Assembly (NCBI GenBank): GCA_950022655.1
Contig: OX465580.1
Location: forward strand, 126,091,016 to 126,155,015
Origin: Alentia gelatinosa
Taxonomy: Eukaryota > Annelida > Polychaeta > Phyllodocida > Polynoidae
Reading direction: 5' to 3'
Length of the DNA: 64,000 bases
The translations under genes were made by a program, and so were the position numbers. The notes under the pieces were generated by a model, which did no database searches, had not been told where the DNA came from, and saw nothing but the letters and a program-made list of their open reading frames with translations. The first letter of the stretch is position 1; each line of letters starts with the position of its first letter. Below, piece by piece: positions 3,430-63,850 of the stretch.

Positions 3430-3840
3430 TTCTGTGTAGTATCTCACTCCTGGTATTTTTCCCATAGACATAACATTGGGAACTCGTATCCAACACCCAT
3501 GAGATATTTAAGAAAAATATCTAATGTGGGATTATGTCACAAATTTTAGCCAATTAGTCAGTGTGAGGGGTGAGATAAATTCAGACACGTATTCAAGTTT
3601 AGGGTCAGAGCTCGATATCGTCTATTTGAATCGCTACGTAATTCATGCGGCTTTGTTTTGTAAATTACTGTGAGATTCAAACTCGATGAGATACGAGCTC
3701 TGACCATAAACTTTCAAAGTAGTGAGTGAACCCGTAGAGATTCCGTTCTCGATCTTTTGTCCCATAAAATATGTCCCTCCGCCTCTGGTGTCTGGGCGTA
3801 TTTTATAGCTAACTATTACTACGTTTTCTACCATTACCGC
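3430..3840 (-). repeat. Foldback element, TCTCACCCC subfamily
   Basis: Begins with TATCTCACTCCTGGTATTTT, then a block related to CCATAGACTTAACATTGGGA, then GGGGTGAGATAAATTCAGA near 3568. A hairpin follows (about 3598-3715) whose arms carry CAGAGCTCGAT and ATACGAGCTCTG around a decayed apex GCGGCTTTGTTTTG. Confidence 0.7.
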
Positions 3841-4339
3841 AATATAACGGACAGCTTTTGATAATATGAATGGCTAGTAGAATCACATACGGAATTATAA
3901 AGCATTATTTGTTGCTCCTGACAAGCCACTCAGTTCTGTGAGGAACTCTTATTGTGCATGGAGATTGGTGAGGGGACAGGTGCATGCGTTCATTAGATTA
4001 CATTACAACAACAACAAACAAAAAAATTACAACTGTTGTTGGTTAAAAATTTCACCAGAATTACTGGATGGCTGGATGCAGATTAAGAAGACACTGAGAA
4101 GTCTATATTCATTATGGTTAGAGTAGGATAAGGTTGATACACCATATGAGGTCGACATGTGGTCATACATTTATGCATAAATCACGCAATAAACCAATGT
4201 AGAACATTGCAGAATATATCGTGTAATCTTTATCGATTATATCTATGCATAGGAAGTAGCACCTGCCAGTAAGACTTCCACACAGGTGGCAAATTTACAA
4301 ATAAAATTGATGAGAACGTTGTTCAGTAACCACCTTACC
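3841..4339. other. Unassigned AT-rich DNA
   Basis: No gene or clear repeat boundary is seen. ACAACAACAACAAA-like simple sequence is present near 4005-4022. Confidence 0.35.
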
Positions 4340-4384
4340 TCCTTTAAATGGTATTGCTTTCCCCCCTAAAATGATAATAAGGAA

Positions 4385-4535
4385 CTGCATCGAGGTCCAT
4401 AGATACTGAAAATATTCCACGCGGTTTTGTTGAGGAGTAATCTCACGCGGCAAAGCCGAATGAGATTATATAGTAAACCAAAATGAATGGCGTATTTTCA
4501 GTATCTATGGATCTATGGATCGAGTGCAGTTCAGA
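4385..4535. repeat. Perfectly organised hairpin, GGCAAAGCCG apex
   Basis: Left arm AACTGCATCGA then TCCATAGATACTGAAAATA. Right arm TATTTTCAGTATCTATGGA then TCGAGTGCAGTT. Apex GCGGCAAAGCCGAATG. The stem sequence is not the one used by the copies just downstream, although the apex theme is the same. Confidence 0.7.
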
Positions 4536-4544
4536 TTTTATCTC

Positions 4545-6270
4545 ACCCCTATCATTGACTAATTGGCTAACATTTGTGACATCATCCCCCATTGAGTCTT
4601 TTTCTTCAAATACTCCATGGTTGTTGAGTACGACTTCCCAATGTTAAGTCTATTGGGGAAACATCTCAGCTAAATGTCTCAGAGGTAAGTCTCAGTTATT
4701 ATAGAGGAAACCTATGAAAGTTTAGGATCAGAGCTTATATCCCATCGAGTTTGAATCACATAGTAATTCACAAGGCGAAGCCGCATGAATTATGTAGCAC
4801 TTCAAACGAGATGGGATTGAGCTCTGACCTTAAACTTGAATTGGTCTCTGAATTTATCTCACCCTTCACATTGACTAAATGGGCTAACATTTGTGACATA
4901 ATCCCCCATTGGATATATTTCCTAAATATCTAATGGGTGTTAGATATGAGTTTCCAATGATAAGTCTATGGAGAAAAAATATCTGGGGTGAGATAATATA
5001 GAGGAAACCTATGAAAGTTTAGGATCAGAGCTTATAGCTATGAAAGTCTAGGATCAGAGCTTGTATCCCATCGAGTTTGAATCACATAGTAATTCACAAG
5101 GCGAAGCCGCGTGAATTATGTAGCAATTCAAACGAAATGGGATTGAGCTCTGACCTTAAACTTGAATACATTTCTGAATTTATCTCACCCTTCACATTGA
5201 CTAAATGGGCTAACATTTGTGACATAATCCCCCATTGGATATATTTCCTAAATATCTAATGGGTGTTAGATACGAGTTTCCAATGTTAAGTCTATGGAGA
5301 AAAAATATCTGGGGTGAGATAATATAGAGGAAACCTAGGAAAGTTTAGGATCAGAGCTTATAGCTATGAAAGTCTAGGATCAGAGCTTGTATCCCATCGA
5401 GTTTGAATCACATAGTAATTCACAAGGCGAAGCCGCGTGAATTATGTAGCAATTCAAACGAAATGGGATTGAGCTCTGACCTTAAACTTGAATTGGTCTC
5501 TGAATTTATCTCACCCTTCACATTGACTAAATGGGCTAACATTTGTGACATAATCCCCCATTGGATATATTTCCTAAATATCTAATGGGTGTTAGATACG
5601 AGTTTCCAATGTTAAGTCTATGGAGAAAAAATATCTGGGGTGAGATAATATAGAGGAAACCTATGAAAGTTTAGGATCAGAGCTTATAGCTATGAAAGTC
5701 TAGGATCAGAGCTTGTATCCCATCGAGTTTGAATCACATAGTAATTCACAAGGCGAAGCCGCGAGAATTATGTAGCAATTCAAACGAGATGGGTTTGAGC
5801 TCTGACCTTAAACTTGAATTGGTCTCTGAATTTATCTCACCCTTCAAATTGACTAAATGGGCAAACCTTTGTGACATAATCCCCCATTGGATATTTTCCC
5901 TAAATATCTCATGGGCGTTGGATACGTGTTCCCAATGTTAAGTCTATGGAGGGGTGAGATAAAAACCTTTATCTCACCCCAGATATTTTTTTATCCATAG
6001 ACTTAACATTGGAAACTTGTATCCAACACCCATTAGATATTTAGGAAATATATCCAATGGGGGGTAATGTCACAAATGTTAGCCCATTAGTCAATATTAA
6101 GTGTGAGATAAATTCAGAAACCCATTCAAGTTTAGGGTCAGAGCTCGATCCCATCTCATTTGAATCACATAGTAATTCACGCGGCTTCGCCTTGTGAATT
6201 ACTATGTGATTCAAACTCGATGGGATACTTATATAGAACTGCATCGACCCTAAATTTTCATGGGTTTCCT
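4545..6270 (+). repeat. Tandem array of about 326-bp foldback units
   Basis: Four successive units have exactly the same spacing. The apex GGCGAAGCC lies at 4774, 5100, 5426 and 5752, i.e. 326 bp apart. Each unit carries a hairpin (arms CGAGTTTGAATCACATAGTA / GTAGCAATTCAAACGA-like), then TTATCTCACCC, then CCAATGTTAAGTCTATGGA and GGGGTGAGATAA. The array is closed by an inverted copy at about 5950-6240 whose apex reads GGCTTCGCC at 6183. Units 2 and 3 are nearly identical, which suggests recent unequal exchange. Short open frames repeat in each unit only because the DNA repeats. Confidence 0.85.
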
Positions 6271-7319
6271 CTATAATGTTACCTCATGGCTGTGAAATAT
6301 TACGAGTTCCAAATGTTAAGTCTATAGAGAAAATATACCATGGATGTGATAAATGTGAAGAACGGTATGATAATAACCCAGAGGTTCAAGCCCCTAGATG
6401 TGATACACAAGGTAATGTCATATTGTGCGATTTGAGGACGGGGCGGGGTGTGGAGCGCGTTCCTCTTGGCAGAGCAGACGACTTTTGAGCGGTGCGACGA
6501 GTTTTCCCGCGTCCCTTTTGTCGACCCGGGTTAACGACATCAACCACGCCGACGACCGCGCCGGGTGTTCCCCGACTGCTGCCTAACAGGACCTGACACC
6601 CACACAGAGCACACTGAATACCGTGTCTATTCATTAACCACGCGCTCGTCTCCAATTCACGCAGCCAGCAGCAAATATTACATGCTCCTTTACACAGCAG
6701 CAGCGGGACTCCAGTTTCGAAATATGATCTTGAGTTTTTTATTATTTCATTTGATCAAATTTTAATTTGGAATATTGCAGTCGCTGATGGGTCTATCCGA
6801 ATCCTCCAGTCATGGATGTAAATCGCACTCGTTATCAGGACTTTAAATCTGAATCTCAGTAAAACGTCCGGAAAATGTTATCCCCAGTAATTCATACACT
6901 TATTTGGTGTGCTAGCATATAATTAGAGCGTGCATCTATATATGTTACCTGAAGGTTAGAGTGGTCACATATAGCCCTCCAGCTTACTGCAAAAAATGTA
7001 ATCCTTCATTATCTGTGTGCTACTCACTGTGATACTGGGAAAGGAGCAGGATGCCAGTGTCTCAGTGATTTAGAAGCGTGTCCAACTGACCATGACCAAT
7101 CACTTAAGACTGAAATACCTGATTGACCCACTGGTGTTTGATGTATTTGGATCCTCGACTCAGGCAGTTGAAGAAATGGCAAGTTGACAGAAAACGATCC
7201 ATAGACTGAATGTAACCCAGACCTTTCAATTGTTATCCATTTATGATTGCACACTCATTCATCAATGATGAACATACTATTGGCTCCTAGCTGTATCAAC
7301 TATGTATACTGCCTGCTCT
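6271..7319. other. Unassigned DNA with a GC-rich core
   Basis: A GC-rich block at about 6420-6600 interrupts AT-rich sequence. Its open frames on both strands show no recognisable domain. The rest (6700-7319) is AT-rich with no recognised feature. Confidence 0.35.
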
Positions 7320-7600
7320 TATCATAGCGTATATATGTAGTTTATACCCGTACGTCACACGGTGAAGTACGGGATATGTGATCACGTGACCAGGTAAAAT
7401 TTCGCAATTTTTAGGTATATAATAATACGAAAACAGGTTGTCTTCGTACGTCAAAATACTTGGTAAAATTATTGATCACATACATGCCTCTGTCTATGGC
7501 ATCGAGATGTATCTCTTCAATAATTTCACCGTGTATTTTTGAAGTACGACAGTAAGCCAGTTTCCGTAAATCATTCTCAGTCTGTTTGTTATAATCATTT
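7320..7600. repeat. Foldback element with CGTACGTCACAC ends
   Basis: Contains CCCGTACGTCACACGGTGAA near 7348 and a hairpin near 7465-7540 with arms ATTATTGATCACATACAT and ATGTATCTCTTCAATAAT around GCCTCTGTCTATGGCATCGAG. A second copy of the same family lies at 12610-12900. Confidence 0.65.
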
Positions 7601-7639
7601 ATCTGGAAGCACGTATATACAAAAACTTACTATTATATT

Positions 7640-7890
7640 CATCACTATCTCCACCGAGTTTGACCTCGGAGTGATTTACGTAGCGGTCAAATGAGGTGAA
7701 GTGTGGACCAAGTTATTTTCATCGAATGGGTTTCTGATTTTATCTCAACCCATATAACATAAGTAATTGATAAAATAAACCACCCAATTAGCAAATGAGT
7801 ATTGGTTACGCTACCTTCACGGCAGTTCCCAATGTTAAGCCTATGGAGAAAAATACCGGGGGGGGGGATGAAGAATATAATCTTACAGTA
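7640..7890 (+). repeat. Partial foldback element
   Basis: Retains CGAGTTTGAC near 7658, ATCTCAACCC near 7741 and CCAATGTTAAGCCTATGGAG near 7829 followed by ACCGGGGGGG. The hairpin apex is deleted. Confidence 0.55.
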
Positions 7891-8149: not shown

Positions 8150-8545
8150 TTATATTCGCGCCTACATACTTATATAGAACTGCATAGAGAATCGTATAAA
8201 TACACAATACTCCACGAGTTTGTAAGGGCGGCAATCTTCATCGAGGCGAAGCCGAGTGACGATTACGGCACTTTCAAACGAGTGGAGTATTGTTTATTTT
8301 ACGATTCGAGTGCGGTTCTGGATTTATCTCACCCCTTTCAAGGTTAGGGGAGTTGAAATTTCTTGTCTTGTCTTGTCATCTCTCTGAAATCCTGGCCGCT
8401 GATTGGTCAATCGCCTGTGACGTCATCTCGTATTCACTACGCCACGACCATGGCGTAGTATTGTCACTTTACCGGGGTGATCGTTGAGTATTTTTTTCTA
8501 ATTTTATTCCTATGGCTACACTTGTACCAGGGGTGAGATAAATGC
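8150..8545 (+). repeat. Foldback element with GGCGAAGCC apex
   Basis: The hairpin at about 8165-8320 has arms GAACTGCAT..AATCGTA and TACGATTCGAGTGCGGTTC, with inner arms CAATACTCCACGAGTTTG / CAAACGAGTGGAGTATTG and exact apex GGCGAAGCC at 8245. The TIR module follows, from TTATCTCACCCC near 8323 to GGGGTGAGATAA near 8530. Confidence 0.8.
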
Positions 8546-9078
8546 TTACACACATTGAGTACGCGTAGTTTATGAGAAGTTTGTGGTTGTGTACATAGGT
8601 AGGCTATGTAAGTGCAGGCTCACTGTGAATAAAATTGCACAAATAAGGCAACGAATATCCATTGGCAATAAGATCTCCACAATCAGTATCAATATATTTT
8701 TTAGAACATTCATCATTCAAATTAATATGGAAAAGGTCCATATATCTTGTGTGCATCTGAAATGAGCTAATGCATCAATATGAAATATGTCTGTCTCTCA
8801 TGTAACCTTATTTGCATCCACAAGGAGATGGTACCGGAAGCTCTTCCTCTCCGTGAAATGTCGGCTGCAGCACCGAGTTTTGGCGGGAAAATTCTCGCGT
8901 CCGACAGGTACGGACATTCTTTGTAGTTCCAGGCCCGCGGGTCTTCAATAAATTAACATTATTCCTATAAATTGTGGGTATAGATGTTGAGGAATGGTGA
9001 ATGATAGCAGCTTTAATTATACCAGGACGAAGTGGCTCCATGTCTTACCTTCATATGCATTTTCACTCCCTGTTAAGA

Positions 9079-9816: not shown

Positions 9817-9822
9817 TTAAAA

Positions 9823-10312: not shown

Positions 10313-10315
10313 GTA

Positions 10316-12609: not shown

Positions 12610-12900
12610 GCACATACTGCCCGCGACTACACATGACGTATTTATGGCTGTACGTCACACTGTGACGTACGGGGTATGACATCATGTGACTAGCGAAAAT
12701 TTCGCCATCTTTAGGTATATAATAATACGTTAAGAGGCCGACTTTCTTAGTACGTCAAAAATACTAGGAAAAATAATTGATCAGATACATCCCTCTGCCT
12801 TTGGCATCGGGATGTATCTGATCAATAATTTCACCACGTATTTTTTATGTAGACAGACAGTAGGCCAGTTTCTGTATATTATGCAACGAAATCTAAGTCT
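12610..12900. repeat. Foldback element with CGTACGTCACAC ends, copy 2
   Basis: Contains GTACGTCACACTGTGACGTA near 12651 and a strong hairpin near 12773-12832 with arms ATTGATCAGATACATCCC and GGGATGTATCTGATCAAT around TCTGCCTTTGGCATC. Homologous to 7320-7600. Confidence 0.7.
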
Positions 12901-13451: not shown

Positions 13452-38935
<25,484 letters not shown>

Positions 38936-39314: not shown

Positions 39315-39612
39315 TATGTCATACCCCTGATATTTTTTCTCCATAGACTTAACATTGGGAACTCGTATCAATGCCCATGAGATATTTAGGAAAAATATCC
39401 AATGGGGGATTATCTCACAAATGTTAGCCCACTGGTTAATGTGAAGGGAGAGATAAATTCAGAAACCTATTAAAGTTTATGGTCAGAGCTTGATCCCATC
39501 TCTTTTAATCACTACGTAATTCACGTGGCTTTGCCTTGTGAATTACTTCACGATTCAAACTCGATGGGATACGAGCTCTGACCCTAAACTTTCATAGGCT
39601 TCCTCTATTATA
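39315..39612 (-). repeat. Foldback element, inverted relative of 25855-26152
   Basis: Contains CCATAGACTTAACATTGGGA, GGGAGAGATAAATTCAGAAA and a hairpin with arms GGTCAGAGCTTGATCCCATC / GATGGGATACGAGCTCTGACC-like, apex GTGGCTTTGCCTTG, ending in GAAGCCTATGA-type flank and TCCTCTATTAT. Confidence 0.8.
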
Positions 39613-46434: not shown

Positions 46435-46980
46435 TAGATTATAGGATGTGGCGAAGTGTACAATTCAAGCTACCACATTGAAGTGAGGAGCAGATCGTCT
46501 TCTCCGGGTATTTATAGTCAGACCACTCGCTACCATGGCGACCTTAACTACGGAGCAGTTTGTATAGCAACTGACCGTTTGTTGACAGTGTGATGTCACT
46601 ATTGGGGAAGGGGTTTTTCCCTTTTTGTGTGACATCGAACGTGGATTTTCAGAAAAGATCTGATCATCCTAGTGGTTTCGCAAGGTGTTCTTCAAGCTCG
46701 ATATGGGGGAGGGTTTTAGGTGATACTGTCAAGTGTCAGTATCCACTAAAGCCCCCATGATGGTACCTCAACCAGGGGGTTGTTGGGGATTGATGAATGG
46801 GAGTCTTAACTTCCCTGGAGGAATTTGGCAATGTGGCAACGGTCAACTACTATTTTAACTGGTCAAAAACAGGTTTTGGTGGTAGCGCTCAGCAAGTCAG
46901 TGAGAAGAGGAGTGGTCAGGAGTGGACCCAAGTGGGTGTTCTCCTGCTATGAATAAACAATCTACAATGGGCAAATACGA

Positions 46981-47255
46981 TTGAAAAAATTCCGGCATGC
47001 GAACCCGATACACCCCACTATCAAGTTCACAGAGGAAACCTCTCCGGACAGGGTTAACTTCCTCGACACAACCATCCACCTGAAAGATGGCAATCTCAGT
47101 ACTAATCTCTATGTCAAACCCACTGACAGCAGCAACTACCTCAGATACGATTCAGCACACCCCAAACACTGTATCCAAGGTATCCCATATGGGCAGTTTT
47201 TGCGACTACGCAAAATCTGCACCAATGAAGATGACTTTGTCTCTAAAAGCCTGCT
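46981..47255 (+). pseudogene. Penelope-like RT C-terminal segment
   Basis: Contains HPTIKFTEE, VNFLDTTIHLKDG, LYVKPTDSSNYLRYDSAHPK and IPYGQFLRLRKICTNEDDF, the conserved string that follows the palm domain in Penelope-like elements. The catalytic palm motifs upstream are missing. The frame is broken by the nested MITE. Confidence 0.88.
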
Positions 47256-47627
47256 CCCACCTACCACGATTCTGGTCCCGATTGGCCTTACGAAGGCCTT
47301 CCTGACACCATTCCGATTCTAGCGTGAGGTCTGGCAAAATCGTGGTAGGTGGAACAGGTTTCTGCAATTCCGTTTACGACAGCTCACGATAGGCTGCGAT
47401 GAAAACGCCAATCGTAGAGGTCCCGATAATTTCCAACATGTTGGAAATTTCGTAGCCTGGCGTTGGGTATTGTAGCCTATCGGGAAGATATCGTGGTCAG
47501 CGTGTATGATTCACCGATTGGATCACGACAGAGGTCTACGATTCGGGGACCTCCCGATAGGTCACGATTTCGCCATTTCAAATCGTAGCGATCGGTAAGC
47601 ATGTCGTGGCCTATCGTGGTAGGTGGG
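47256..47627. mobile_element. 372-bp TIR element nested in the Penelope-like element
   Basis: CCCACCTACCACGAT (47256-47270) and its exact inverse ATCGTGGTAGGTGGG (47613-47627) form the ends. The interior repeats ATCGTAG and CCTATCG words. Target duplication unclear. The host reading frame resumes at 47638 in the same phase. Confidence 0.8.
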
Positions 47628-47637
47628 GGTCCCCTCT

Positions 47638-48414
47638 AACTGCATCACGAAAGGTCAATACTTCGTGAGACGAGGCTACCCTGAAACTCTCCTTGAGGCA
47701 TTCTCCAGGGCCCTCAATACTCCATGAGAGAGCCTGTTGAACCCTAAAAAAGATTCAACAGAAACTACTCCCAAAAATGTAGTGGTTAACACCTACAACC
47801 CGGGCTTTAACGGCCTCCTGAAGGTGGTTTCCACAAACTGGGACCTACTTGGAAAGTCATGCTCTACACGCACAATCCACCAACAGAAACCGATAGGGGC
47901 TTACAGACAACCAAAAAACCTGCGAGACCTACCGGTCAGCACGAAACTGAAACCGGAAAATACCCCAGTGTTGATTCCGAACGATAACTGTTGCCTCCGA
48001 CCCAACAGTTGCAGATACTTCCCGAAGCTCAACACCGATGGACGAATCAAATGCACAGCCTCTGGAAGGACTTACATGAGCAGATATAATGTGAGCTGTT
48101 GCAGCTCCAACCTTATATACTGCATTACATGTAAGCGCTGCGGCATCCAATATGTTGGGCAGACCAAACACAAACTGAAATTGGTCTTCACAGCACATTT
48201 AGGGAACATCGCGAAAAACAATGTGTGGGAAAGTGAGGTGGCCCGACACTTCAACTCTACCGATGTCACTAGACACCTTGTCGACTTTGTCTACGCAGCA
48301 CCAGATACTGCAAAGGCAAAATACCTCAGAGACCTCCTGGAATTCAACTGGATCCAGCATCTACACACGAATGCACCGGTGGGCCTAAACATCATGGACC
48401 CATTAAAGCATTGA
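47638..48414 (+). pseudogene. Penelope-like linker and GIY-YIG endonuclease
   Basis: Begins YFVRRGYPETLLEAFSRAL, then TGA at 47725. The following 225 codons include the CCHH-type zinc-binding stretch (CCLRPNSCRYF..) and NLIYCITCKRCGIQYVGQTK, the GIY-YIG core. Where active members have an Arg before the FxxH segment, this copy reads KLVFTAHLGNI, so the catalytic Arg appears to be lost. The C-terminal EFNWIQHLHTNAPVGLN is the usual domain ending. Confidence 0.87.
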
Positions 48415-51980: not shown

Positions 51981-51984
51981 GGAC

Positions 51985-52300
51985 TTTTACCTCACCCTGG
52001 TATTTTTCTCCATAAGTTTAATGTTAAGATTTTTCTTTAATTGGGTCAGTACGCAGAATTCATACTCCATGGCCATTAAGATATTGTACCCAATACTCAA
52101 TGGCTAATGAGGTGAGTTATTTTATTGATTAATAATGTTTCTGATCATGTATAAGGGGTGAGATGAAATCAGAAACCCACTAGTATGACTGCTATCCAAT
52201 TCACTCAGCTTTGCTTTGTAAATTACTCTGCAGTCAAACTCGGTGGATTATGGACCAAGTTATTTTCATCTCATGAGTTTCCTTCTAAATTCGTCATCGT
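51985..52300 (-). repeat. Decayed foldback element
   Basis: Contains CTCACCCTGGTATTTTTCTC, a degraded AAGTTTAATGTTAAG block, GGGGTGAGATGAAATCAGAA and a hairpin with apex CAGCTTTGCTTTG. Substitutions are more frequent than in other copies. Confidence 0.6.
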
Positions 52301-52697
52301 ATACCTTGCGGCTGGATGATGACTTAATGCTGCAATTCCACAACTCAGAAACTGCAGTGAAAATATTATCATATCATTGTAATAAAATACTAATAAGAAT
52401 ATGATTAACTTCTACCACTCTCACACTTTGAAGGCTAGTGACCATAAGAATGCTGTAGAGATAACCTTCACCAATAATTATTGAACCGTGAAAAAGTGGT
52501 AACTTATAGAATCACCCCTTATTATATACCCGTGCAGTATTTTTGATAATTACATACTGCTGCTCCCTATGCAGTATAAATTGTGAACTGATCCCTGTGC
52601 ATTGAAACATCAGCAGTGTGTGGGCTTTCACATTGACATGGCTTCTATGCCAATATATGATAAGATTCTATCAATTTTGGGTATATAATGAATAATA

Positions 52698-52852
52698 TAT
52701 AACGACCCATCATGCTTGTAAATGCTACAAAACTTAATGGGAATTGATGTTACTTATGGAACTCGACCTAGGGCCTCGTTCTGTAAATAACAACAGTTCC
52801 CCATCTCGTTTTGTAGCATTTACAGCATGGTCAGGTCGTTCTATATAATTAC
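52698..52852. mobile_element. TIR element within about 230 bp of the ABCB7 stop
   Basis: TATATAACGACC..CATGCTTGTAAATGCTAC at the left mirrors GTAGCATTTACAGCATGGTC and GGTCGTTCTATATA at the right. A related, shorter copy is at 57205-57306. It sits downstream of the ABCB7 stop codon and may be transcribed as 3' UTR. Confidence 0.7.
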
Positions 52853-52928: not shown

Positions 52929-53216
52929 TCATTGAGGTTCCTGGGGTTTCTTCTCAGCATTGTTGCTGTTGTTATTGTTGTTGTTGTTGTTGTTGGCGAA
53001 CTTGGCCTCTTCCAGCGCCACCTCGTTCTGTTTCTGCCACAGGTCGGCGTAGAGGGAGCCCGGGCGGGAGACGAGGTCGCGGTGCGTGCCCCGCTCCGCC
53101 ACCTTCCCGTCTCCCAGCACGAGGATCTCGTCGGCGTCCACCACCGTCGACAGCCGGTGAGCGATCACGATCGTCGTCCGGTCCTGCGTCACCCGGCCCA
53201 GAGCGTCCAGAATTCT
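52929..53216 (-). CDS. ABCB7: ABCB7 terminal exon
   Basis: Acceptor TTTGCACAG, stop TGA at 52931-52929. Starts [20 protein letters not shown], contains the H-loop His and [19 protein letters not shown], then a tail with nine Asn in a row encoded by a TTG/GTT microsatellite (plus strand, about 52960-52996) and a KKPQEPQ end. The exon is GC-richer than its surroundings. Confidence 0.95.
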
Positions 53217-56200
53217 CTGTGCAAACAAAATTTTTTGTAAATTTTGATGATTACGTATGGAATGACAACAACACCGAGAATTAAAGTCCCCAATATTTAA
53301 GGGAAACTAGTTATCCTAATTGGGATGGGTCCTCGTCCCGTATTACTTTCACTAAACCTACCGCATGAACTTGTAGAGCGAATGCGGTAGGTTTAGCGAA
53401 AGTAACAAGGGACGAGGACCTATCCCTATTAGGTTAACAAGTTTCACTTGTACTATACACCTCTAAATATCTGTAAATATTTAAAAACTTGCCAAAATGT
53501 GTCAATGTTTAAGTGCTACACAAAGTCGTCTGGGCAGGCGGAAGTGACTTTCTGCTATGTGACTTTCTCACAACGTTCATAGCCACGATTTCGTAAATGA
53601 AATTCAAACTATTAGAAAATTCTTTTCTTTGGGAATAATAGTGTCATAATATTATTCATAAATTTCCTGTGTATTTTTTTTCTCCAGATATGTATTGTTT
53701 ATCATTTATTTTGGTATTTCCGATAATACACATACTCACGTTTCAGATTAAGTGTTCAAAGTGTGGTGGTATGGCGCCATACCGGCACAGTATAGTGGTA
53801 TGCCTCAACTACCACTTGGATAGCAGAGGTTGGTATTTGGAGTATTTTGGGGCATATGTGTATAGTACGTTGTAGCAATAAAGCACATGTACAGTTAATA
53901 ATAACCAACAGTCAATAGTCCTAACTGCTCTATATTACACAGATATGTCAGTTGGGGTCGTGAAAAAGAGAGGAAGTATTTTTCATGTGGAATTTACTGA
54001 CGCAGAGAGACAGGAAAAGCATGGAAAACACATAGTTATTGGCCATGGAATGGAGTTTGGGCGTATGGGGAGGTTTGAACCACTGTTTATTGGTGTGCTT
54101 GAGGACAAAGTTTATTCTCTCTTGGTCTTATATAAAAAAAATATTTTCATGAACCGAAACTGAAAACAAGGATTTCCTTGGAAACAAGGAAAACTGCCAT
54201 CTCTGATTACAATAGGCAGAGAGTATGCTGCACCACAGTGGTGACTGTACAGAGAGCTGGCGCACCAGAGTGTCTTGACTGAGTCGCGATTAGAAGAACT
54301 AGTCGATCCTGTTCTGAAAAAAAAGTTCGATTTCCTCCTGGTAGGGAGCCACAACCGTTATACTTAAAAGAAAATTATTTGTATTGTTAGGATAAATTCT
54401 CCAGCGCTACCACTAAAGGTACGCATTAACTAGATTGAACCAGATGTACTATTGATTTCAAAGTAACCAACCTGTTCTGTTATGGAGTCCAGAGACGATG
54501 TAGCTTCATCGTACACTAAGATAGGTGGCTTCTTCATTATCGCCCGAGCAATGGACACCCTCTGCTTCTCACCACCTGCAAAACACATGTAACATTTAAT
54601 AAATAATCATAACATCATATGAAATCCACTACATCTCTTTTTTAATCAAATGTTTCTGCTGGACAGAAACTATATTGTAGAGGGTAACTCAAAAGACAAG
54701 GGCATTGAGACGCTTCTTAATAGTTTTTTTTTCTTAATATTCTATTTTTATGCATTATCCAGTAAAACAGAATACATGTACTACGTATGATGGACACTAT
54801 ACTTAAACGGTAGCTTGTCATACACTACTACAAACTATGACACAGCATTAACGGAATTTATCCAGAAAGAGTTTTTAGTTCATAAAACCTCACATTTCCT
54901 CTTCACTGACTGAAATTATCATTAATCCACAGAATCACCTGATCACTTTATCTCACCCCTGGTATTTTTTTCCCCATCGGCTTAACATTGGGAACTCGTT
55001 CTCCATGCCCCTATGAGTATTGCAGCCCGTTCTCCATGGTCTATATCCTGCATGTCTTCCACTTTTTTTAATGTGTACAGGGGTGAGCTAAATACAGAAA
55101 GTAACTTGTTTGGTTAAAGTCATAGTTCTCCAACTCATTTGAATGCTATGTGATATTCACTCAGCTGTCGCCTCATTCATATCACTCTGCATCAAACTCG
55201 ATGAGAACGCCAACTTTGACCAAAACGTGTTGGTTTCTTCTTTAAATGTTGGTTTCTTCTTTACGTGTTAGTTTCTTCTTTAAATGTTGGTTTCTTCTTT
55301 AAGTGTTGGTTTCTTCTTTAAACATATCTGACATGTATAGTAGAAGAGGACCACTGCCCGCGGTGTACCTGAGAGTTTGAGTCCCCGCTCGCCAACCTGA
55401 GTGTCATACTTGTCCGGCCACTGCTGGATGAAGTTGTGGATGTCGGCCATCTCCGCCGCCGCCATTACCTCCTCCTCACTGGCTTCCACACGCCCATAGT
55501 TTATGTTGTGTCGTATCGTGTCGTGAAATAGTATTGTCTCCTGAGATGATGCAAAAATAATAGCAGACAATTGGTCAGAGCCTCTTTACAAAAAATAGCA
55601 ACAATAGCCATAGAACTGATGTGAGACGAGCGACTTCCTATGTCTTAGAGGGGGTGGGGAGTTATTTTGAAAAAAAACTTTTCGTCTGCTCTCCCGCTCG
55701 GGTATCAGCATTGGAAAAATTTGGGGGTGGGGAGTTAGCTCAGTGGTTACAGCACCAGACTTGTAATCCCAGGGTTGTAAGACTTTGTGGGTTAAAGTCC
55801 CACCCCCAGCAGTGGTAGATTTACTGCTATAACAAAGGCCATCCTTCTCATACCATGTCTATGTGGTGTGGGAAGTAAAAGAACTCTCACTTCGGTAAAT
55901 GTGTAGGGGTGAGATTTCTACCTGAATTCATCACATAGATTCGTTCACCACCCTAGTGGTGTAAAAGAACCTTGAGAAAGTCTGGAAAGGACCTATAATG
56001 GTTGACTGGACGTAAAATCAAACCAAACAAACAAACTATGTCTTAGAACCTAAATCCCTTCATATTACCAGCGTACTCTGAATAATGTGAAATTTCTGGA
56101 GGTATCTGTCCAGTTCATTTGCATTGGTTCTACAAGTGAATAACTCAAGTGCCTGAATGCGTGACCACTTTTTTTTTAAATTTGGTATTATACTGGACTG

Positions 56201-59200
56201 ATCTGTAAGGCTTAGGCTGCCTATCTTCCAGTTCCTACGTTCCTTAGTATCCACATGTCTAGTATATGGACGTACAAGTGGCATTGCTATGGGTACATGG
56301 CTAGTGGTTACAATATTTATACCTATACAATTATATAGATTTGATACGTGGCAAAATCCGACCTGTACAGTTGAGCAGTTGGAAAAAACCAAACAAAAAA
56401 AAACCCTATACAATTATATATGATAATTGTTTCTAAACTAACATAGTCCATTTAACATATTGAGAAATTGTTTATATTGGATGAATAAGAAAAATACACA
56501 GCAGATTTTCTATCTTTGGTTACTACACAATCAATGTTTTTTATGGTCTATAAGTACAAGATTACAACTGTCATGACCACACTCACCTGTGGGACCACGC
56601 CTATCGTATGCCGCAGACTCTCCAGGTTCACTTTACGGATGTCCTGTCCGTTCACCAGGATGCGTCCTGCCTGTGGATCGTAGAAGCGGTACAGCATCCG
56701 CACAATCGTGGACTTCCTACAAGACCAAAACACACACTATCGATGCAAGATTCAACATTAGATCTCTAACCGCATTACGAAACCATGATATTGCCTATTT
56801 ATAAATGAGTTTATCCCGCGTAATATAACATATATATTGTTTACTGCATCGTCTCATGTCTTATCATATTACGGCAAAGTACATCTATACGGATTGATGT
56901 AAACACAATACTTATTGGTGAACCAATGTTTAAGTGTTGAAAAAGGGAGGCAGAAGACCACGACTTCAATGTATGCGAACTGACCAATTACAAAAAACAT
57001 ACAAAAAATACACTAGTTACTATATACCCATGCCGTGTATACTGTAAATACGCACCGTTTCGCCATATAACGTATAAATACCGTACGAAACACTGTTTCG
57101 TACGGGAAAATACGGAACACTTGTTCTGTTTACGAAGACTAAAATATTAGTTCTTAAGCCAAATGAAATGAATAATTTTTCTTAATTTCGGGTATACCGA
57201 TATAGTAAATATATAACGTCCAACCATGCTTGTACAAGTCACAGAACTCGATACTAATTTAGGGTTTGTAACCTGTACAGCATGGTCAGGACGTTCTATA
57301 TAATTACTTTGCATGACGGATTGGTATTGTCTTCGCATAAGATAGAGGATCAAAAAGAAAATTTACGTATTAGGATTAATTACACTGAGGAAAAACTATT
57401 AGAGCTCGTGACAACAGATCGCTACTAACTAGATACACATGTCGGTATAGCTCAGGGATGAAGGGAATAGGTATTTTTTAAATGTTACAACACTCTTAAT
57501 GGAATACTTGAAAATAAATAATCTCGTTGTAACACTCAGCCAATATTGGCGAGATTCGTAGCCCAGGAATTACCTAGTCGTATAAGGATGGGAAAATGTG
57601 ACCTATGTCAAATTACATTAAAATGTAGTATCCAAACGTTCCCCATTACGGCAGTACTATCTTTTTTCTTTGTTTTTGTTTATTTCAACCAGTTCTACCA
57701 GTCCAGGCAGATCTTATTTTTGTTGAATTAGTTTATCATTCTGCTTGTATCGTCTATCTCATTTATAATTATAAATGTTATTAAATTATGTCACCACTTT
57801 CAGTTTGACTTACCCAGAGCCGCTGCCGCCCACGATTGCAATTTTCTTGCCAGAAGGTACGGAGAAGGAGAGTTTGTTAAGAATTTTACGACCCTCCACA
57901 TACTGAAAGATGACATCCTCGAAGGTGACAGATGACTCCTGTGGTGTCAACTGTAAGATGGGTGCCCCTGGTAGACTCTGTGTGAGAGATAAAATATAAG
58001 TTTATTAAAAGACTCAAAAGACGTGTCTGACCACTGGTTTCCTGTGTATGTAATGAGTAATATTAGGAAACGTGTTTGTAATTTCTTCGTTCCGCTGGAC
58101 CTGTCGAGGATCAGTGGTCGCATGTGGTGGGAGAGAGACTCACACTTCAAGATACGCCACGTTTTCCCATATAATATTAGGAAACGTCCTTACTGTGGAC
58201 GAAACGGTTCCTGTTTGAGGTCAGTCGTCGATATCATACTGCCTGACGCCATAGGCGGAAGGCAGTATGAAATCGACGATTGACCGAGAACGAGAATCGT
58301 TTCGTCTACAGTCAGAACGTTTGCTTATTATTATATACCTTAAATCGATGAAAAAATGACATTTCAATGACTTATTTAATCACTCTCACAGCGGGCACGT
58401 ACATTATTATTACTGCACCCCTAGTAGCAGGCAGTATTTCATAGACATTCGCACACAGGTATATAATAAAATGTATTGTGCTGTTCTTGTGCTTGGTCCC
58501 TTTCTTGTCAACTTTCATTTTTATATGTTTTTTTGACGTTATCATAAAACACAAAAAAAGACAAAAAATAAAAAATGAGCAAGCTCATACACTAAGGGTA
58601 AGGTTATCAGGTAATGAATATTTTTCTTTTATGATTATCATACTGCAAAAGGGTACATACGCTGGTCTCTGCGTTGGTTATTCTGACCAACGGTTTAAAT
58701 ACCAGTAGAAGGTTTAAAAACACATACAACAACAAAGAAATGTAACCTTAGGTCATATCAAAAACACAGGTAGACTTCCCTACATGAATTAAAATATCAA
58801 GACATACAGGGCGTTGACATAGAAAGTCACCCAATTTGTGCCAATTGTTTAGAAACCCCCAGCACACCTGGGGCCTCACAGTGCCCCACTTCCTTAAATA
58901 GGTTTTGAAAATCAAAATATAGGTTTTTACAGGTTTTTCAAGGCCCCAAAACTAGGCTTTTATAGGTTTTTAGGGTTAAAATATTCAGCATAATGAGAGT
59001 CAAAATATAATGAATAGCTTATTTTCAGTTCTTAATTTCTAAAAAAATGTATCTAGTACTAAATTGCAGGACGTCCGGATGTCTCATCAGGTTACAACCA
59101 GCAAGCATGTATGCCTGTGTTGAGTTTCAAACAGGCAAGCCAGCCTGACAAGAAGTCACACCAACTATTGATTCATAAACACTTTTATGATATATTAAAT

Positions 59201-62200
59201 AAAACAATGATGTGGATTTCTTGTCATCTAACAATCTAACTTTGTGTCAATTTAACTTCTAAGATTTCATGTACAAGTCAATCTGGCTCATGAATCAAAA
59301 TATAGGTTTGACTGGGAGGCCTGCTAGGGTCATAATATGAAGAAACATCACGAGTTTGAGTCTGAGTTTATTCATGCCACACATTTTGTTGGCTCCATAA
59401 TTTCACGAGTCGAAGACGAGTGACATTACGGAGCCAACAAAATGAGTGGCATAAATAAGCTCAAACTCAAAAGAGGGGCGTCTAGATTTTATCCTACCCC
59501 ATTTCCATATTTTTTCAGTATCAGAAAGTAGTGGCATAAACAACACTTTATGTCACACCCGTGACATAAACAAATCCCATGTTAAGCCTATGACGCTTTT
59601 TATTAGGGGTAGGATAAATACAACAATGGGGCATACCCTGTACTGCCGTGTGCGACAATCGAGTCGCACCAGTGGGGCCGGACCTTAACGCTATGAACAA
59701 TCATCTGCTTTGATGGACAGGAAGTTCAAATGAGCAGTTCCGAGCAGCTCATGGCAGAATCAGACCACTAGACGTAGGGTTGTTCTTCGAGACATTTTTA
59801 ATCACTCCATCAACAATTCAAGAGATGAGGAAGGAAAGAGACCAGGCTTACTTGAACGCTAGCTTGGTTTTCTAGCAGACTGAAGAGCGTGCTCATGTCG
59901 ATGAGTGACTGGCGAACCTCCCGGTACACGGAGCCCAGGAAGTTGAGCGGTATGGAGAGCTGGAAGAGCAGCCCGTTAACCATCACCAGATCACCAACCG
60001 TCATTGTCCCTGCAGGTAAAAATAATGTATGTATTTATATCACCCTTAGTATTTTTTCCGCAAATAACTAACATTGGGAACTCTTACTCAACGCACATGG
60101 AGTATTGTAATCAAATACTTAATTTGGGATGATGCCACAAATTTGAACAAATTAGTCAGTGAAAGGAGTGAGATAAAATCTGAGCCGCACTAGATCCATT
60201 CATTTTAGTTTGCTACATAATCTCACTCAGCTTTGCCTCGTGGGATTACTTCGCAACCCAAACTCATGGCATATTGTTAGTGCATATGGACTTCGATGCA
60301 GTTCCATATTAGTACCTTGCAACGATAGATGGAAAACAAATTTAGAGAGTGAGTCAGGTTGGAGCAAAGAAAACCCACATATCACTCGCTATTTACAAAT
60401 GAATTTGTATTATTTTTTGTCACAAATCATCCACGTGTATTGTAAATTCTAGATGCCAAATAGCCTCATGAAAATAGTCAGAATGTGATATTTTGTAGCT
60501 TTTTCGATGAGACTGGTCACACCAAGGCGAGACGGAATCTACATGAAGAGGTGACAGAGTTGTAGCGAAGTGGACTGAGTGGGAACCAAACACGTAAGGT
60601 ATGATGCACATAATATAATCTTGTAAATACTGACTCGCTCTCTTGCCTCTATACCAATATTTATGTTGTCCACTGTGAATTTTATGACTCCAATCTAGAA
60701 GCGACATATATGGCGAAAATGCTTTTGAAATTTTAGACGATGTAAATCTTATAAAGATGACATCATCTGGAAAATAAGGTTTTAACCCTCCAAAAAAGAC
60801 AGGACATCATATCATAGTAATAATAGTTTTTTTTAAATTACAAAAATCTGTTTTCATATAAACAAGAAAAGGTTTCTTAACACCATGTTTATCTGATCTA
60901 CCTCTGTATGTGACCGTGGTCTCCAAACTTTAGGGGTAAGTCATGTCAGTCTATTGACCGATACCCCCGCAGTATAGATAAACAACATAAAAAATATATA
61001 CTATTTTTTTCATTTTTTTTCATTGATACTGCCTAACTATAAGATTCCTGATGGGTCCGATCCGTATGAAACCTTAGAGCCCCACCCCTCTCTGTCAAAT
61101 CTGATAGTGTCCAAAACCAGACATCTGCTTGGTTATTCACCTATTCACTGACTAAGAAACGCTGGGAGAATAGCCACGATAGTGCGATGTCACTGTTGTG
61201 AAGGGTGGTTGTTATGCTTCATTATTTTTATAACAATGTCTCCTGGGAGAACCCATAGCAACGGTTTGGTCATGACGTGTAGATATCATTTTGAAGGTAG
61301 CATCGGTTGTGTATAGAAGTGTATCTGCCTCTATTACCCACCAAATACGGAGTCTCCATAGGAAATGTATAGAGCACCTGGAATCGGCTACCGGGAGATT
61401 CTGACATGTCAGAATCTCCTGCAGGAGATTCCGGAATAAAAGTTCCATCTATAATGAGGTCAAATTACAATTTATTTCAAAATAAGTTTTCTGAATTTTC
61501 ATTCAATATTAATCATTTGTAATCAGTCATAGTAAACTCATTTATCATCAGAAATCATTGTCATAAAACTTTTTTAATGCTAAAATCACAGAAACATAGC
61601 GGACTATATAACTGGTTTAAGTATACACCGAATTACTACCATGCTTGATAGTGCTGTGGTATTATCAAATGTGTAATCATCCTATATGTCGATTCATGTT
61701 CCATTCTTGTTATCAATCTAGTAGGTGGATAATAAATACAATAAAGACTGGTTTTAATTAAGAGTGTCCGCAATCTCCTCGTAGTTGACAACGTAATATC
61801 CTCGCTAATCGCTCGGATATTACTACGCGTCAACTACTCGGAGATTACGGCCACTCGTAATCAAAACCAGTCATTATTGTGTATGTATTCTTAACACAAA
61901 ATTATATTAAAGAAAGCGTCACACTGGGCACCATGGCGCGCCCATGACTCACCGTTAACGATGCCCTGACTGGCCAGGACCATGATGGCGGTGAGTCCCG
62001 CACTGAATATGGCGTTCTGCCCCCAGTTCAGAAAGGCCAAACTGGTTGTTGTCTTCAGGGAGGCTTTCTCGTATGCTGCCAGAACCTTGTCATATCTCTC
62101 CGCTTCGTAAAGCTCGTTGTTGAAGTACTGAATGGAAAAAGACAAACATTTATTTGTACCCAAGTTACTCAGATATTGCCATTTATAAACTTCTATAAAG

Positions 62201-63395
62201 TTACCCAATTAATATTCCTGAGTTAAAGAAATTAAAATTCTGTAGTGAAACGCCTGGTCGCTGAAAGTGTATAACTACTCTCCACACTCGGCTGTCGACC
62301 AAGGGCCCGAGACTATGGTCGCTACCCCGTACTTACCGCGCCAGTACGGGTGGGTTGGGATTGACCCACTGGAAAGGGCAGGGAGATGCGGGATCTACAA
62401 CCTATCGCTACCGGTGGACACAAAACTATTTAATTATACCAGCTTTTATTCGGTATATGTAGTGGATACAGTAAGTTGGTGCTATGGGGCACCAACTAGT
62501 GCAGGAAGAGATTCTGGTCTCTTCGTCGTTGAAAGGTTCCGAACCAACCTTACCAACTTGTGAGGCTCCAGGCTCTACAGGGAGGCACCGCGAGGAGTCC
62601 TGTCAACTCGCTGCAGACTCAGTCTTATATACTGAATGAGATACGTAATGCGGGCGACCCCGTAGTATTTGCATACACGGGTCCGCCGGCCTTACCGCAC
62701 AGCAGGGATCAGCACTCGCGCCATCTAGCGTAAAGTGAAACAATGCTGCTCGACTACCCCGACCTCTACAATTCTAATCAGATACCAGATTTATTATACC
62801 ACACTAGTACTAGTTTGGAGTGAGCAGTAATATGAACTTAAGTGGCATATGTAGCGAGGTATGAAATCTATCTATTCTAATCAGCACCTCTGAGTGGCTC
62901 AGATATGATGAATGAATATAGTCTTGGAGAGTACATCCCAATCAGCAGTTCAATGACCTCCCACAACATTTTACTTTGAATACTGTTGGAATGGTTGTTC
63001 TTTGTATCAAAACTCACTGTAAATCACACCTTCTCATCACATCAACCACATCCCCATATTATATTTACATTCTTTCTTACTATTAATGATACAGGTTTAC
63101 TGCTGAAGTTTGCTCCGTTGTTGAATGTTGTGCTAGCAACAGGAAGACCTGACGTATCAGATGTTGAGTGGTTAAATAAAGAAAATTATGTACACAATTT
63201 AAATTTTGAAAAAATGCTAAACGACATTAATTTGTCAACAGACGTATTTTTCTAAACTGACTTACTTTGACAGTTTTGTTTTTTTTTAATTATAAAAAAA
63301 GACTTACTTTGACAGTTTCATAATTGATGAGGGAGTCTACGGCCTTATTGCCGGCCTCCTGGTCCGCCTTATTCATCTGAACACGAAACTTCGTC
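52929..63395 (-). CDS. ABCB7: ABCB7-type mitochondrial half ABC transporter, C-terminal 425 codons
   Basis: ABCB7 (yeast Atm1) is a homodimeric half-transporter of the mitochondrial inner membrane that exports a glutathione-linked sulfur or iron-sulfur precursor needed for cytosolic Fe-S protein assembly. Eight exons with GT..AG introns and consistent phases are visible. They cover the end of the transmembrane domain ([68 protein letters not shown]) and the whole nucleotide-binding domain: Walker A GGSGSGKST, Q-loop VVPQ, signature LSGGEKQRV, Walker B ILVYDE, D-loop SSLDS and H-loop IAHRLST. The transmembrane segments match ABCB7 far better than other ABCB families. The first exons lie beyond the right edge. 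The C-terminus differs from vertebrates: a poly-Asn run replaces the Cys-containing tail. Confidence 0.95.
53305..53450. repeat. Foldback hairpin in ABCB7 intron
   Basis: Arms TTTCACTAAACCTACCGCAT / ATGCGGTAGGTTTAGCGAAA and GGGTCCTCGTCCC / GGGACGAGGACC, apex GAACTTGTAGAGCGA, outer arms GTTATCCTAATTGGGAT / ATCCCTATTAGGTTAAC. Confidence 0.75.
53940..54205 (+). mobile_element. CAGRGATG-ended MITE with open reading frame, copy 3
   Basis: Left end CAGATATGTCAGTTGGGGTC, right end AAACTGCCATCTCTG, flanked by ATTACA on both sides (53934-53939 and 54206-54211). A 72-codon frame starts at the ATG inside the left TIR (53945): [20 protein letters not shown], then [11 protein letters not shown] and [10 protein letters not shown]. 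It aligns with translated segments of the copies at 18262, 18609 and 23950. Confidence 0.75.
54472..54575 (-). CDS. ABCB7: ABCB7 exon with signature and Walker B
   Basis: Acceptor TTTTGCAG, donor [26 protein letters not shown] then [15 protein letters not shown]. Holds the end of the LSGGE signature, Walker B with its catalytic Glu, and the D-loop. Confidence 0.96.
54945..55230 (-). repeat. Foldback element in ABCB7 intron
   Basis: TTATCTCACCCCTGGTATTT, GGCTTAACATTGGGAACTCG, GGGGTGAGCTAAATACAGAA, then a hairpin with arms TAGTTCTCCAACTCATTTGA / TCAAACTCGATGAGAACG-like around CAGCTGTCGCCTCATT. Confidence 0.7.
55222..55320. repeat. Tandem repeat, five units of about 20 bp
   Basis: Units of TGGTTTCTTCTTTAAATGT type with small changes (one unit has ACGTGTTAG). 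Placed 50 bp inside the intron from the donor of the exon at 55369. Confidence 0.85.
55369..55540 (-). CDS. ABCB7: ABCB7 exon with helical subdomain
   Basis: Acceptor ATCTCAG, donor GTACAC. Residues [36 protein letters not shown] and [12 protein letters not shown], the structurally diverse helical part of the NBD, ending one base into the signature Gly codon. Confidence 0.96.
55638..56047 (+). mobile_element. tRNA-derived SINE with perfect 12-bp target duplication
   Basis: CTATGTCTTAGA at 55638-55649 and 56036-56047 bounds the insertion. The tRNA-like head (from about 55725) has TTAGCTCAGTGGTTACAGC as A-box region and GGGTTAAAGTCCC at the B-box position. The body is shared with 10590-10896 and the tail is AAACCAAACAAACAAA. 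The first 15 bp of the head (GGGGGTGGGGAGTTA) also occur about 75 bp further left, so the 5' end is partly duplicated or interrupted. In an ABCB7 intron, antisense to the gene. Confidence 0.85.
56587..56716 (-). CDS. ABCB7: ABCB7 exon, post-Walker A to Q-loop
   Basis: Acceptor CTTGTAG, donor GTGAGT. Begins with the Lys of Walker A ([20 protein letters not shown]) and ends with the Q-loop GVVPQ. Confidence 0.96.
57205..57306. mobile_element. Short TIR element, relative of 52698-52852
   Basis: TATATAACGTCCAACCATGC at the left mirrors GCATGGTCAGGACGTTCTATATA (given here in parts) at the right. In an ABCB7 intron. A small hairpin TACGAAACACTGTTTCGTA lies just upstream at 57082. Confidence 0.65.
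57814..57977 (-). CDS. ABCB7: ABCB7 exon, linker and Walker A
   Basis: Acceptor CTCACACAG, donor [26 protein letters not shown], the A-loop aromatic in FQYVEG, and [12 protein letters not shown] leading into Walker A. Confidence 0.96.
58030..58450. repeat. Foldback element in ABCB7 intron
   Basis: Hairpin with arms GTCGTCGATATCATACTGCC / GGCAGTATGAAATCGACGAT and apex TGACGCCATAGGCGGAA. Outer arms GTGGACGAAACGGTTC / CGTTTCGTCTAC. A direct repeat TAATATTAGGAAACGT occurs near 58059 and 58171. Confidence 0.7.
58850..59335. other. Unassigned intron sequence with TATAGGTTTTT words
   Basis: Short direct repeats of the type TATAGGTTTT are dense at 58897-58970. This may be a decayed hAT-like MITE, as at 13692-14111, but no TIR was found. 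Confidence 0.35.
59340..59630 (+). repeat. Foldback element, TTATCCTACCCC subfamily
   Basis: Hairpin arms TTTGTTGGCTCC / GGAGCCAACAAA and GAGTTTGAGTCTGAGTTTAT / ATAAGCTCAAACTC around CACGAGTCGAAGACGAGTG. Then TTATCCTACCCC near 59490 and GGGGTAGGATAA near 59607. Confidence 0.75.
59852..60009 (-). CDS. ABCB7: ABCB7 exon, last transmembrane helix
   Basis: Acceptor CCTGCAG, donor [26 protein letters not shown] then [18 protein letters not shown] and the linker to the NBD. This block is almost invariant in ABCB7/Atm1 proteins. Confidence 0.96.
60035..60320 (-). repeat. Decayed foldback element in ABCB7 intron
   Basis: ATCACCCTTAGTATTTTTTC, AACTAACATTGGGAACTCTT, GTGAGATAAAATCTGAGCCG, and a hairpin with apex CAGCTTTGCCTCGTG between ATAATCTCACT and GGGATTACTTCG. 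Confidence 0.65.
60321..61330. other. Unassigned ABCB7 intron sequence
   Basis: No repeat terminus recognised. The 95-codon minus-strand frame (60420-60707) is intronic and lacks a domain. Confidence 0.3.
61332..61886 (+). repeat. Long foldback element, TTATTACCCACC subfamily, copy 2
   Basis: Paralogue of 1510-2066 over its whole length, same orientation. The inner hairpin GGAGATTCTGACATGTCAGA and the terminal hairpin with apex CTCGCTAATCGCTCGG are preserved. The left TIR word reads TATTACCCACC and the inner right word TAGGTGGATAATAA has one change. Confidence 0.75.
61953..62127 (-). CDS. ABCB7: ABCB7 exon, transmembrane domain
   Basis: Acceptor CCATTCAG, donor [69 protein letters not shown] and LNWGQ-type motifs lie at the glutathione-facing region in Atm1 structures (established for the family). 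Confidence 0.96.
62230..62830. other. GC-rich segment in ABCB7 intron
   Basis: GC-richer than the flanks, with a 98-codon plus-strand frame (62267-62563) that has no recognisable domain. Could be a solo LTR or part of an unrecognised element. Neither TIR nor target duplication found. Confidence 0.35.
63259..63318. repeat. ABCB7: 18-bp direct repeat duplicating the ABCB7 donor
   Basis: GACTTACTTTGACAGTTT occurs at 63259-63276 and 63301-63318. The right copy spans the exon end and GTAAGT donor (minus strand); the left copy is 42 bp into the intron and carries an equally good GTAAGT. Confidence 0.85.
63308..63395 (-). CDS. ABCB7: ABCB7 exon, most 5' exon in the window
   Basis: Acceptor ACATTCAG, donor [26 protein letters not shown] then SLINYETVK, the intracellular loop and helix conserved in ABCB7/Atm1. 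Begins one base into a codon split with an exon outside the window. Confidence 0.96.
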
Positions 63396-63549
63396 CTGAA
63401 TGTGAAGAACAAATCAATATTTATCTATTTCTACATACGGTTATTTATCAAGTAATATTTCAATAGAGTTATTACTGGTTTCTATATGGGTTAGCAGTTG
63501 TGATAATGAGGATAAAACATGAATGTTGTGTGTGGTCAGACATTAGGTT

Positions 63550-63850
63550 TCATTGATTTACTTTATCTTAGCCTGGTATAGATAAGAGGTTTAACATTAG
63601 GAACTCGTACTCAACAGGCATGTGAGTATGGTAACCCATACTCAATGGGCAACAAACAGATAGATATATCCAGGCTAAGGTAAAATCCGAAACATATTTG
63701 TGTCTTGTCTGACTCCTTGTTCGTCATCTCGTTTGGAGTGCTTTGGAATATTCACCCGGCTATTGCCTCGTTCACATTACTCTGCACTCTAAACTCGATG
63801 GCTAATGGGGACAGAGACAAAACACTCGTCGGTTACTTTCTGAGTAACCC
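63550..63850 (+). repeat. Foldback element, relative of 30715-30990
   Basis: TTTAACATTAGGAACTCGTA, CTCAACAGGCATGTGAGTAT, then a hairpin with apex CCCGGCTATTGCCTCGTT between CATCTCGTTTGGAGTGC and GCACTCTAAACTCGATGG. Confidence 0.7.

Follow-up and report, generated by a model that had tools for sequence, protein, structure and literature searches.

What is conserved in the long hairpins that are scattered through a 64-kb stretch of DNA from the annelid Alentia gelatinosa (the window)? An earlier note had singled out their apex, proposing that it may be selected as a single-strand DNA fold while the stem can vary freely. When the AT-masked window was scanned for inverted repeats with gaps allowed, 51 hairpins scored 12 or more, of which 48 are left when three masked AT runs are removed. 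Dinucleotide shuffles (n = 3) gave only 2, 3 and 4 hairpins, with a top score of 13, so that the scattered long hairpins that had been reported are confirmed as real and not due to chance. Most are 120-180 nt long. The nine exact apices (GGCGAAGCC/GGCTTCGCC) are all present, each at the apex of a hairpin, one of them at 27477 and not 27478. The four near-variant words occur once each (at 4449, 39527, 30911 and 29576), and the estimate of about a dozen near variants is fair, with looser relatives at about 3595, 52170, 60234, 63762, 55169, 19958 and 28745. The exact apices are split over three stem families (A, six; B, two; C, one). Five of the nine lie within 1.5 kb, four of these being units of one 326-bp tandem array (4712-5951 by tandem-repeat analysis) and the fifth (6183) abutting it. 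The stems of different families are unrelated in sequence yet paired. Eight strong hairpins are without the GGC-GAA-GCC apex (1912, 12710, 14283, 23187, 52691, 53299, 58169 and 61738).

Self-comparison of the window showed, among the matches listed, that homology runs beyond the hairpin on one side. As judged by these comparisons, the hairpin makes up the 5′ half of a putative interspersed element of about 300 bp, the 3′ half of which is closed by a short inverted repeat. The alternative that the hairpin is the whole element was ruled out by the 3′ domains that copies have in common. In superfamily I, this domain is about 150 bp long, has a TTTATCTCACCCC-like start and a GGGGTGAGATAAA-like end, and contains the core AATGTTAAGYCTATGG, which has 21 matches in the window at three or fewer mismatches against 1.66 expected. 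With a profile of 13 seeds, the domain was found at 23 places in the window with E below 1e-6. A hairpin stands upstream of 22 of these 23 best tail matches, the exception (6277-6354) being a short 3′ fragment; thus, there is little 5′ truncation. The most conserved stretch of the elements is near their 3′ end. By eye, the closing repeat co-varies between families (TCTCACC/GGTGAGA in A, TCCTAC/GTAGGA in B, CTTAGCC/GGCTAAG in F5), and this repeat, with its joint changes judged by eye, is all that is claimed for the 3′ domain. RNAalifold gave no consensus structure for an alignment of 20 3′ domains, which counts against a conserved fold of the whole domain. The 3′ domains of B27, B30, C8 and H21 hold a conserved TGACGTCAT palindrome. 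Superfamily II (K, P, M and N) has a tail of a different kind, with TTATATACC/GGTATATAA as its closing repeat, of which TTCC/GGAA is jointly changed in M (by eye). The start of M23 in this superfamily, TTATAGAGGGAAAC, resembles the start of family A, TTATAGAGGAAACC. By eye, elements start with TTATA..GAGGAAAC or GAAC, and finish with ..GATAA or ..GGTATATAA.

The elements are listed in Table 1. The hairpins were first sorted by hand into 15 groups, which become 14 families when H is merged with C. H as a separate family was dropped, because the start of H21 is like that of C8 and the module it holds is the outer one of C; the loop of H21 was accordingly taken out of the loop count. The family A array has three identical head-to-tail junctions, GGGGTGAGATAA/TATAGAGGAAACC, at 4985, 5311 and 5637. 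The array end and A6, lying tail to tail (5856-6088), form the top-listed inverted repeat of the window, with 95-nt arms.

Table 1. Hairpin elements in the window; GA/GA internal loops are given as base pairs from the apex.
Element	Position	Strand	Hairpin, apex or loop	GA/GA at pair	Remarks
A25, family A	25854..26152	+	hairpin ~25863-26004; GAA apex 25930		best complete superfamily I element; 3′ domain ~26005-26152, core 26111-26126
Family A tandem array	~4697..5951	+	GAA apices 4774, 5100, 5426, 5752		326-bp unit, 3.8 copies
A6, family A	5966..6277	-	apex 6183		tail to tail with array
A3, family A	3437..3719	-	apex decayed		5′ end short
A39, family A	39323..39612	-	AAA
T52	51983..52260	-		none scored	decayed; grouped with A in counts, nearest T7 by BLAST
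B27, family B	27406..27764	+	GAA apex 27477	4, 31
B30, family B	29905..30218	-	apex 30139	4, 30	near-perfect stem
C8, family C	8168..8547	+	GAA apex 8245	29
Family C	28398..28810	-		none scored	decayed
H21, family C	21551..21800	-		outer module of C	most of hairpin deleted; starts TTATATAGAACTGCATCGAGAATCG like C8 (relation by eye)
Family T	4380..4670	+	AAA	none scored
Family T	60031..60306	-		4
Family F4	29352..29655	-	TAA	4, 61
Family F5	30704..30993	-	GATA	4, 8, 34
Family F5	63559..63840	-	AATA	8, 31
Family F5c	54943..55230	-	GACA	7, 29
Family F5c	19895..20180	+	AACA	8, 30
G59, family G	59345..59622	+	apex GTC-GAA-GAC	4
T7	7640..7876	+	apex part lost	one module retained
Family F7	1612..2067	-	hairpin 1912-2066; GATTA	3, 28	different tail
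Second F7 element	61431..61888	-		3, 28
K7, superfamily II hairpin	7426..7568	-		3	tail on its left
K12, superfamily II hairpin	12710..12891	-	AAA	5	tail on its left
K14, superfamily II	14112..14449	-	GCA	34
P58, superfamily II	58169..58465	+		5, 33
M23, superfamily II	23007..23332	-	apex module AA/GC	32
N52, superfamily II hairpin	52691..52850	-		5	tail orientation from weak matches

Stable DNA mini-hairpins have a GNA or GNNA loop on at least two G-C pairs, and GCGAAGC melts at 78 °C (PMC4686876, accessible text). In the window, such a loop with at least two closing G-C pairs was found at the nine exact sites and in seven of 15 apex representatives (in G59 the two G-C pairs are non-adjacent), so that these caps would belong to the mini-hairpin class. 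Loop and closing G-C pairs of d(GCGAAGC) are identical at the nine exact sites, and the same class recurs in F5, F5c, G and K14; unlike the isolated mini-hairpin, the motif here stands on top of a long natural stem that contains tandem G.A modules. At all nine exact sites, the GAA strand is the one that carries the tail 3′ to it. The apex strings of the representatives were set by hand, excluding H21, whose loop is a deletion product. Their loops are GAA (4), GCA, GATA, GACA, AAA (2), TAA, GATTA, CTA, ATA, CCTG and TTGTAGA, the last of these, from O53, being taken on the plus strand without tail orientation. GNA or GNNA stands on the tail strand in 7/15 representatives and on the complement in 0/15; the eight representatives with other loops are a counter-point to selection of the loop. 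AAA, AATA and AACA may be the expected products of CpG decay from GAA, GATA and GACA. Sheared closure of an AAA triplet is named in the title of a reference cited in PMC6479982.

The special role of the apex had been made to depend on its diverging more slowly than the stem. In the six copies of family A, the two rates are about equal, with 7/54 differences in the apex (0.130 per site) and 104/782 in the rest of the hairpin (0.133), and within this family the result goes against the earlier note. Thus, the apex decays like the stem after insertion, and its conservation is visible between families only. The apex alone as the conserved object was rejected on account of this decay and of the several families without such an apex.

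A second feature of the hairpins is found in their stems. For 34 hairpins oriented by their 3′ tails, the arms were aligned under a scoring scheme with one and the same penalty for every mismatch. Left out of this set were 17381, 18522 and 53299, which have no tail orientation, as well as 34113, 39064, 50758, the three AT runs, and hairpins scoring under 16 except 52170; three elements (7640-7876, 19895-20180 and 60031-60306) entered through their tails. Six of nine initially un-oriented hairpins were oriented later, K7, K12, N52 and N57 by tail and F7c and F7d by homology to F7. The tail side in superfamily II was set by comparing both flanks blind to GA. This comparison gives a firm tail side for K7-K12 and K14-P58 and a weak one for N (E 0.028); that of M comes from self-comparison. 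Among 86 two-by-two internal loops in the 34 hairpins, 38 are 5′-GA/5′-GA on the tail strand and none is TC/TC. The three hairpins without orientation have no GA/GA or TC/TC loops. Every family (14/14) holds at least one GA/GA loop. The one-strandedness of the 14 families has P 1.2e-4 in a two-sided sign test if families are independent, although they may have a common ancestry and hence not be independent trials. The loops lie mostly 3-8, 28-34 or 60-61 pairs from the apex; an outlier at pair 16 belongs to T7, which has lost its apex, and that at pair 7 in H21 is the outer module of C shifted in by deletion. The context is Py-GA-Pu in 33 of the 38, a context that favours stable sheared tandem pairs. 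In families A and M, the apex module is an AA/GC loop (6/86 loops).

Around the mid module, nine representatives have a pairwise identity of mostly 0.17-0.45 per position on both arms, and 6-9 of the nine are Watson-Crick paired at each step, with an outer closing C-G pair in 8/9; the columns at offsets 0 and 1 are identical by selection, so that the information is in the flanking columns only. A, C, T, T7 and F5c are alike beside this module. Near-random sequence in which pairing is kept has the look of a conserved fold after long divergence. The stem, then, is not free to change in the sense that had been proposed: its sequence drifts, but tandem G.A internal loops stay on one strand in every family. 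What stands of that proposal is the single-strand fold, for which the loops speak by their strand (GAA on the tail strand in 9/9, GNA/GNNA 7/15 against 0/15). Since GA/GA loops and apex loops are both tied to the strand, one single strand of the hairpin appears to be selected to fold. As far as sequence can tell, the conserved object is not the apex alone but the architecture, specific to one strand, of a mobile element in two parts.

These features suggest that what some copying enzyme reads is a single strand in folded form, and not the usual double helix. We propose that the elements are non-autonomous mobile elements of about 300 bp whose tail strand is selected as a folded single strand, most likely single-stranded DNA read by a mobilising enzyme, an explanation to which we give an even chance. 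At its 5′ end the element would have the hairpin, each arm of which measures about 70 bp, and downstream of it the 3′ domain, closed by its inverted repeat. Once one strand has been laid bare by the mobilising enzyme, the hairpin on it would fold, and the G.A modules and the loop would serve as strand-specific handles marking the right strand and end, while the 3′ domain would mark the other end. The enzyme may bind the folded single-stranded DNA as TnpA-REP acts on mismatched REP hairpins and the Helitron transposase on a 3′ hairpin. Once inserted, copies would decay neutrally. Both the kind of enzyme and the choice of DNA over RNA as the molecule that folds are inferred; no transposase was found in the single 64-kb window. 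A single-stranded DNA route, REP-like or Helitron-like, is favoured, with RNA as the main rival. More tentatively, an animal transposition system may recognise its DNA as a folded single strand, using as marks a GNA cap and the sheared tandem G.A modules that recur in that strand; it would be a eukaryotic counterpart of REP/RAYT recognition, common to at least two superfamilies with unrelated stems and tails. We see this as possible rather than probable.

Which molecule folds was considered from wobble pairs and folding energies in 25 hairpins, three tandem copies being left out. G.T pairs exceed A.C pairs by 77 to 44 (P 0.003), and by 38 to 21 among isolated pairs (P 0.04); in B, F7, K, M and P, five families picked after seeing the data, isolated pairs sum to 20 G.T and 4 A.C. 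The tail strand is the better folded one in 21/25 elements with RNA energies and in 17/25 with DNA energies, the exceptions being A39, A3, F5b and G59 as RNA, and eight elements as DNA. As RNA, A25 has -152.5 kcal/mol on the tail strand and -130.4 on the opposite strand. The wobble excess and the folding bias speak for single-strand selection and do not single out one molecule, RNA being in no worse agreement with them than DNA. In the RNA reading, a transcript of the tail strand takes the form of two rods and serves as template for a reverse transcriptase, which recognises the conserved 3′ region and returns the element to DNA. In favour of this reading are how large the wobble effect is, the position of the most conserved stretch near the 3′ end, and the stability of tandem GA in RNA too. 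Against it, the hairpin is kept upstream of nearly all tail matches, which leaves no 5′ truncation gradient, and no A tail was seen by eye. Transcription by pol III, and with it membership among SINEs, is opposed by internal TTTT runs in 16/20 elements and B-box matches in 0/20, and ARAGORN found no tRNA. At gathering score, Rfam has a single match in the window, a weak tRNA at 55729-55808 that lies outside the elements; the four matches of A25 up to E 10 are far below that score and include no ribozyme, and no ribozyme family of the retrozyme or hammerhead kind reached it in the window. Loops of GAA, GATA and GACA are more in keeping with DNA mini-hairpins than with the common RNA tetraloops. 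DNA is favoured by loop class, scarce 5′ truncation, tandem junctions and internal TTTT, and the RNA reading is possible but less likely.

Selection of a folded DNA strand must also be weighed against an ordinary MITE or foldback DNA transposon, in which the palindrome matters as double-stranded DNA and the GA blocks are direct-orientation sites for a transposase. Many copies, TTATA-like ends, co-changing inverted repeats and both intronic and intergenic sites agree with such an origin, and MITEs and foldback elements are likewise short, non-coding, self-complementary and numerous. In those elements, however, the palindrome is not one half of the element with strand-specific non-complementary modules, as it is here, and a duplex site gives no reason for a purine GA exception on one strand amid kept pairing. 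The terminal inverted match, TTATA-like, is only about 5-8 nt by eye. Target duplication is not above control: the longest word common to both flanks has a mean of 7.1 over the 15 true pairs, compared with 6.3 when 210 pairs were mismatched, a result with which short duplications remain compatible. The two longest of these words come from a copy of an element nested in the site (A6, 14) and from a repeat that lies beyond the element's end (H21, 10). In a separate listing, flank matches of 6-12 nt occur in 13/21 rows at scattered offsets; by eye, TAA stands on either side of N52 and N57. We regard this alternative as improbable. A neutral by-product, in which hairpin-templated repair keeps the arms complementary and well-stacked tandem G.A escapes it, would suit stems that are unrelated between families yet paired, but it is very unlikely, as it leaves the recurring positions, the tail-tied strand and the prevailing Py-GA-Pu context unexplained and the arms of one family B copy have decayed apart (B27 compared with B30).

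For a strand folding as DNA, the closest likeness is with bacterial REP/REPIN sequences and TnpA-REP (RAYT). The stem of E. coli REP holds a conserved AA-GC mismatch, two by two in size, which is needed for cutting as single-stranded DNA, and a regular stem abolishes activity (PMC8266576, accessible text). Substitutions that leave the mismatch unpaired are still cut, whereas in two other REP groups mismatches reduce cutting and a perfect stem is preferred (PMC8266576, same part). Both REP and the present elements are high-copy non-coding palindromes, the present ones with strand-specific mismatches and REP with a mismatch in some groups but not in all; strand-specific recognition of folded single-stranded DNA has been described for REP, and is suggested here from sequence alone. 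REP sequences are bacterial and 21-65 nt long (PMC6006769, accessible text), a range that the hairpins mostly exceed, while here hairpins of about 140 nt in an animal have up to three scored GA/GA modules each and a second, 3′ domain. The AA/GC mismatch of REP is seen also in families A and M.

Helitrons begin with 5′-TC and end with CTRR-3′. Helibat1, for example, has TC/CTAG ends, and in Helraiser the 3′ hairpin is a terminator or stop signal (PMC4778049, accessible text). Helitrons, Helentrons, HINE and DINE-1 resemble the present elements in being eukaryotic and often non-autonomous, with palindromes near their ends and some tandem repeats, and Helitrons make no target duplication (PMC4778049, PMC4067079, accessible parts). 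Unlike in Helitrons, the long hairpin here is at the 5′ end and far longer. By eye, TC/CTAG-type ends were not seen in the elements, nor were HINE subterminal repeats or a TT insertion preference recognised. The elements can be assigned to neither the REP nor the Helitron families, defining ends not having been seen.

Outside the window, the core 18-mer has four exact matches in bacterial genome contigs, judged to be about chance, and none in viral contigs. CGAGGCGAAGCCGAG occurs in at least 120 viral-contig stretches; in 124 loci checked, with 124 matches, no more than 16/25 positions are paired beyond the apex, and these were taken as chance. A protein search with a chance frame of A6 gave nothing. 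Among the literature matches listed, no title or abstract opening connected a transposable element with tandem G.A or with GCGAAGC, most subscription papers lying outside the reach of this search.

Foldback elements of eukaryotes are usually regarded as passive palindromes. If folding of one strand is under selection, the non-Watson-Crick modules would be a signature independent of stem sequence, which can be searched for in other genomes, and would tell which strand the mobilising enzyme uses. They would also offer a natural test of the cellular reading of tandem G.A and GNA motifs, which are known mainly from test tubes.

The window, animal nuclear DNA by its exon content, also contains genes and other repeats. 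A gene for an ABCB7-type mitochondrial transporter (52932-62208, minus strand) has at least seven exon pieces, with six listed mobile elements or hairpins between exons; among the best 120 of 672 matches, the top named relatives are from Capitella teleta (68%) and the snail Bulinus (68%). Frames at 32025-32396 and 37424-37675 (minus strand) have no Pfam match, and by eye we take them to be possible exons of a PYROXD1-like oxidoreductase. Frames at 46957-48411 (plus strand), also without a Pfam match, resemble by eye the end of a Penelope-like reverse transcriptase with GIY-YIG. A Ty3/gypsy-like retrotransposon at 42954-46259 (plus strand) has protease, reverse transcriptase, RNase H and integrase zinc-binding domains in two frames. 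Long (AT)n microsatellites lie at 24273-24366, 36231-36321 and 37149-37221.
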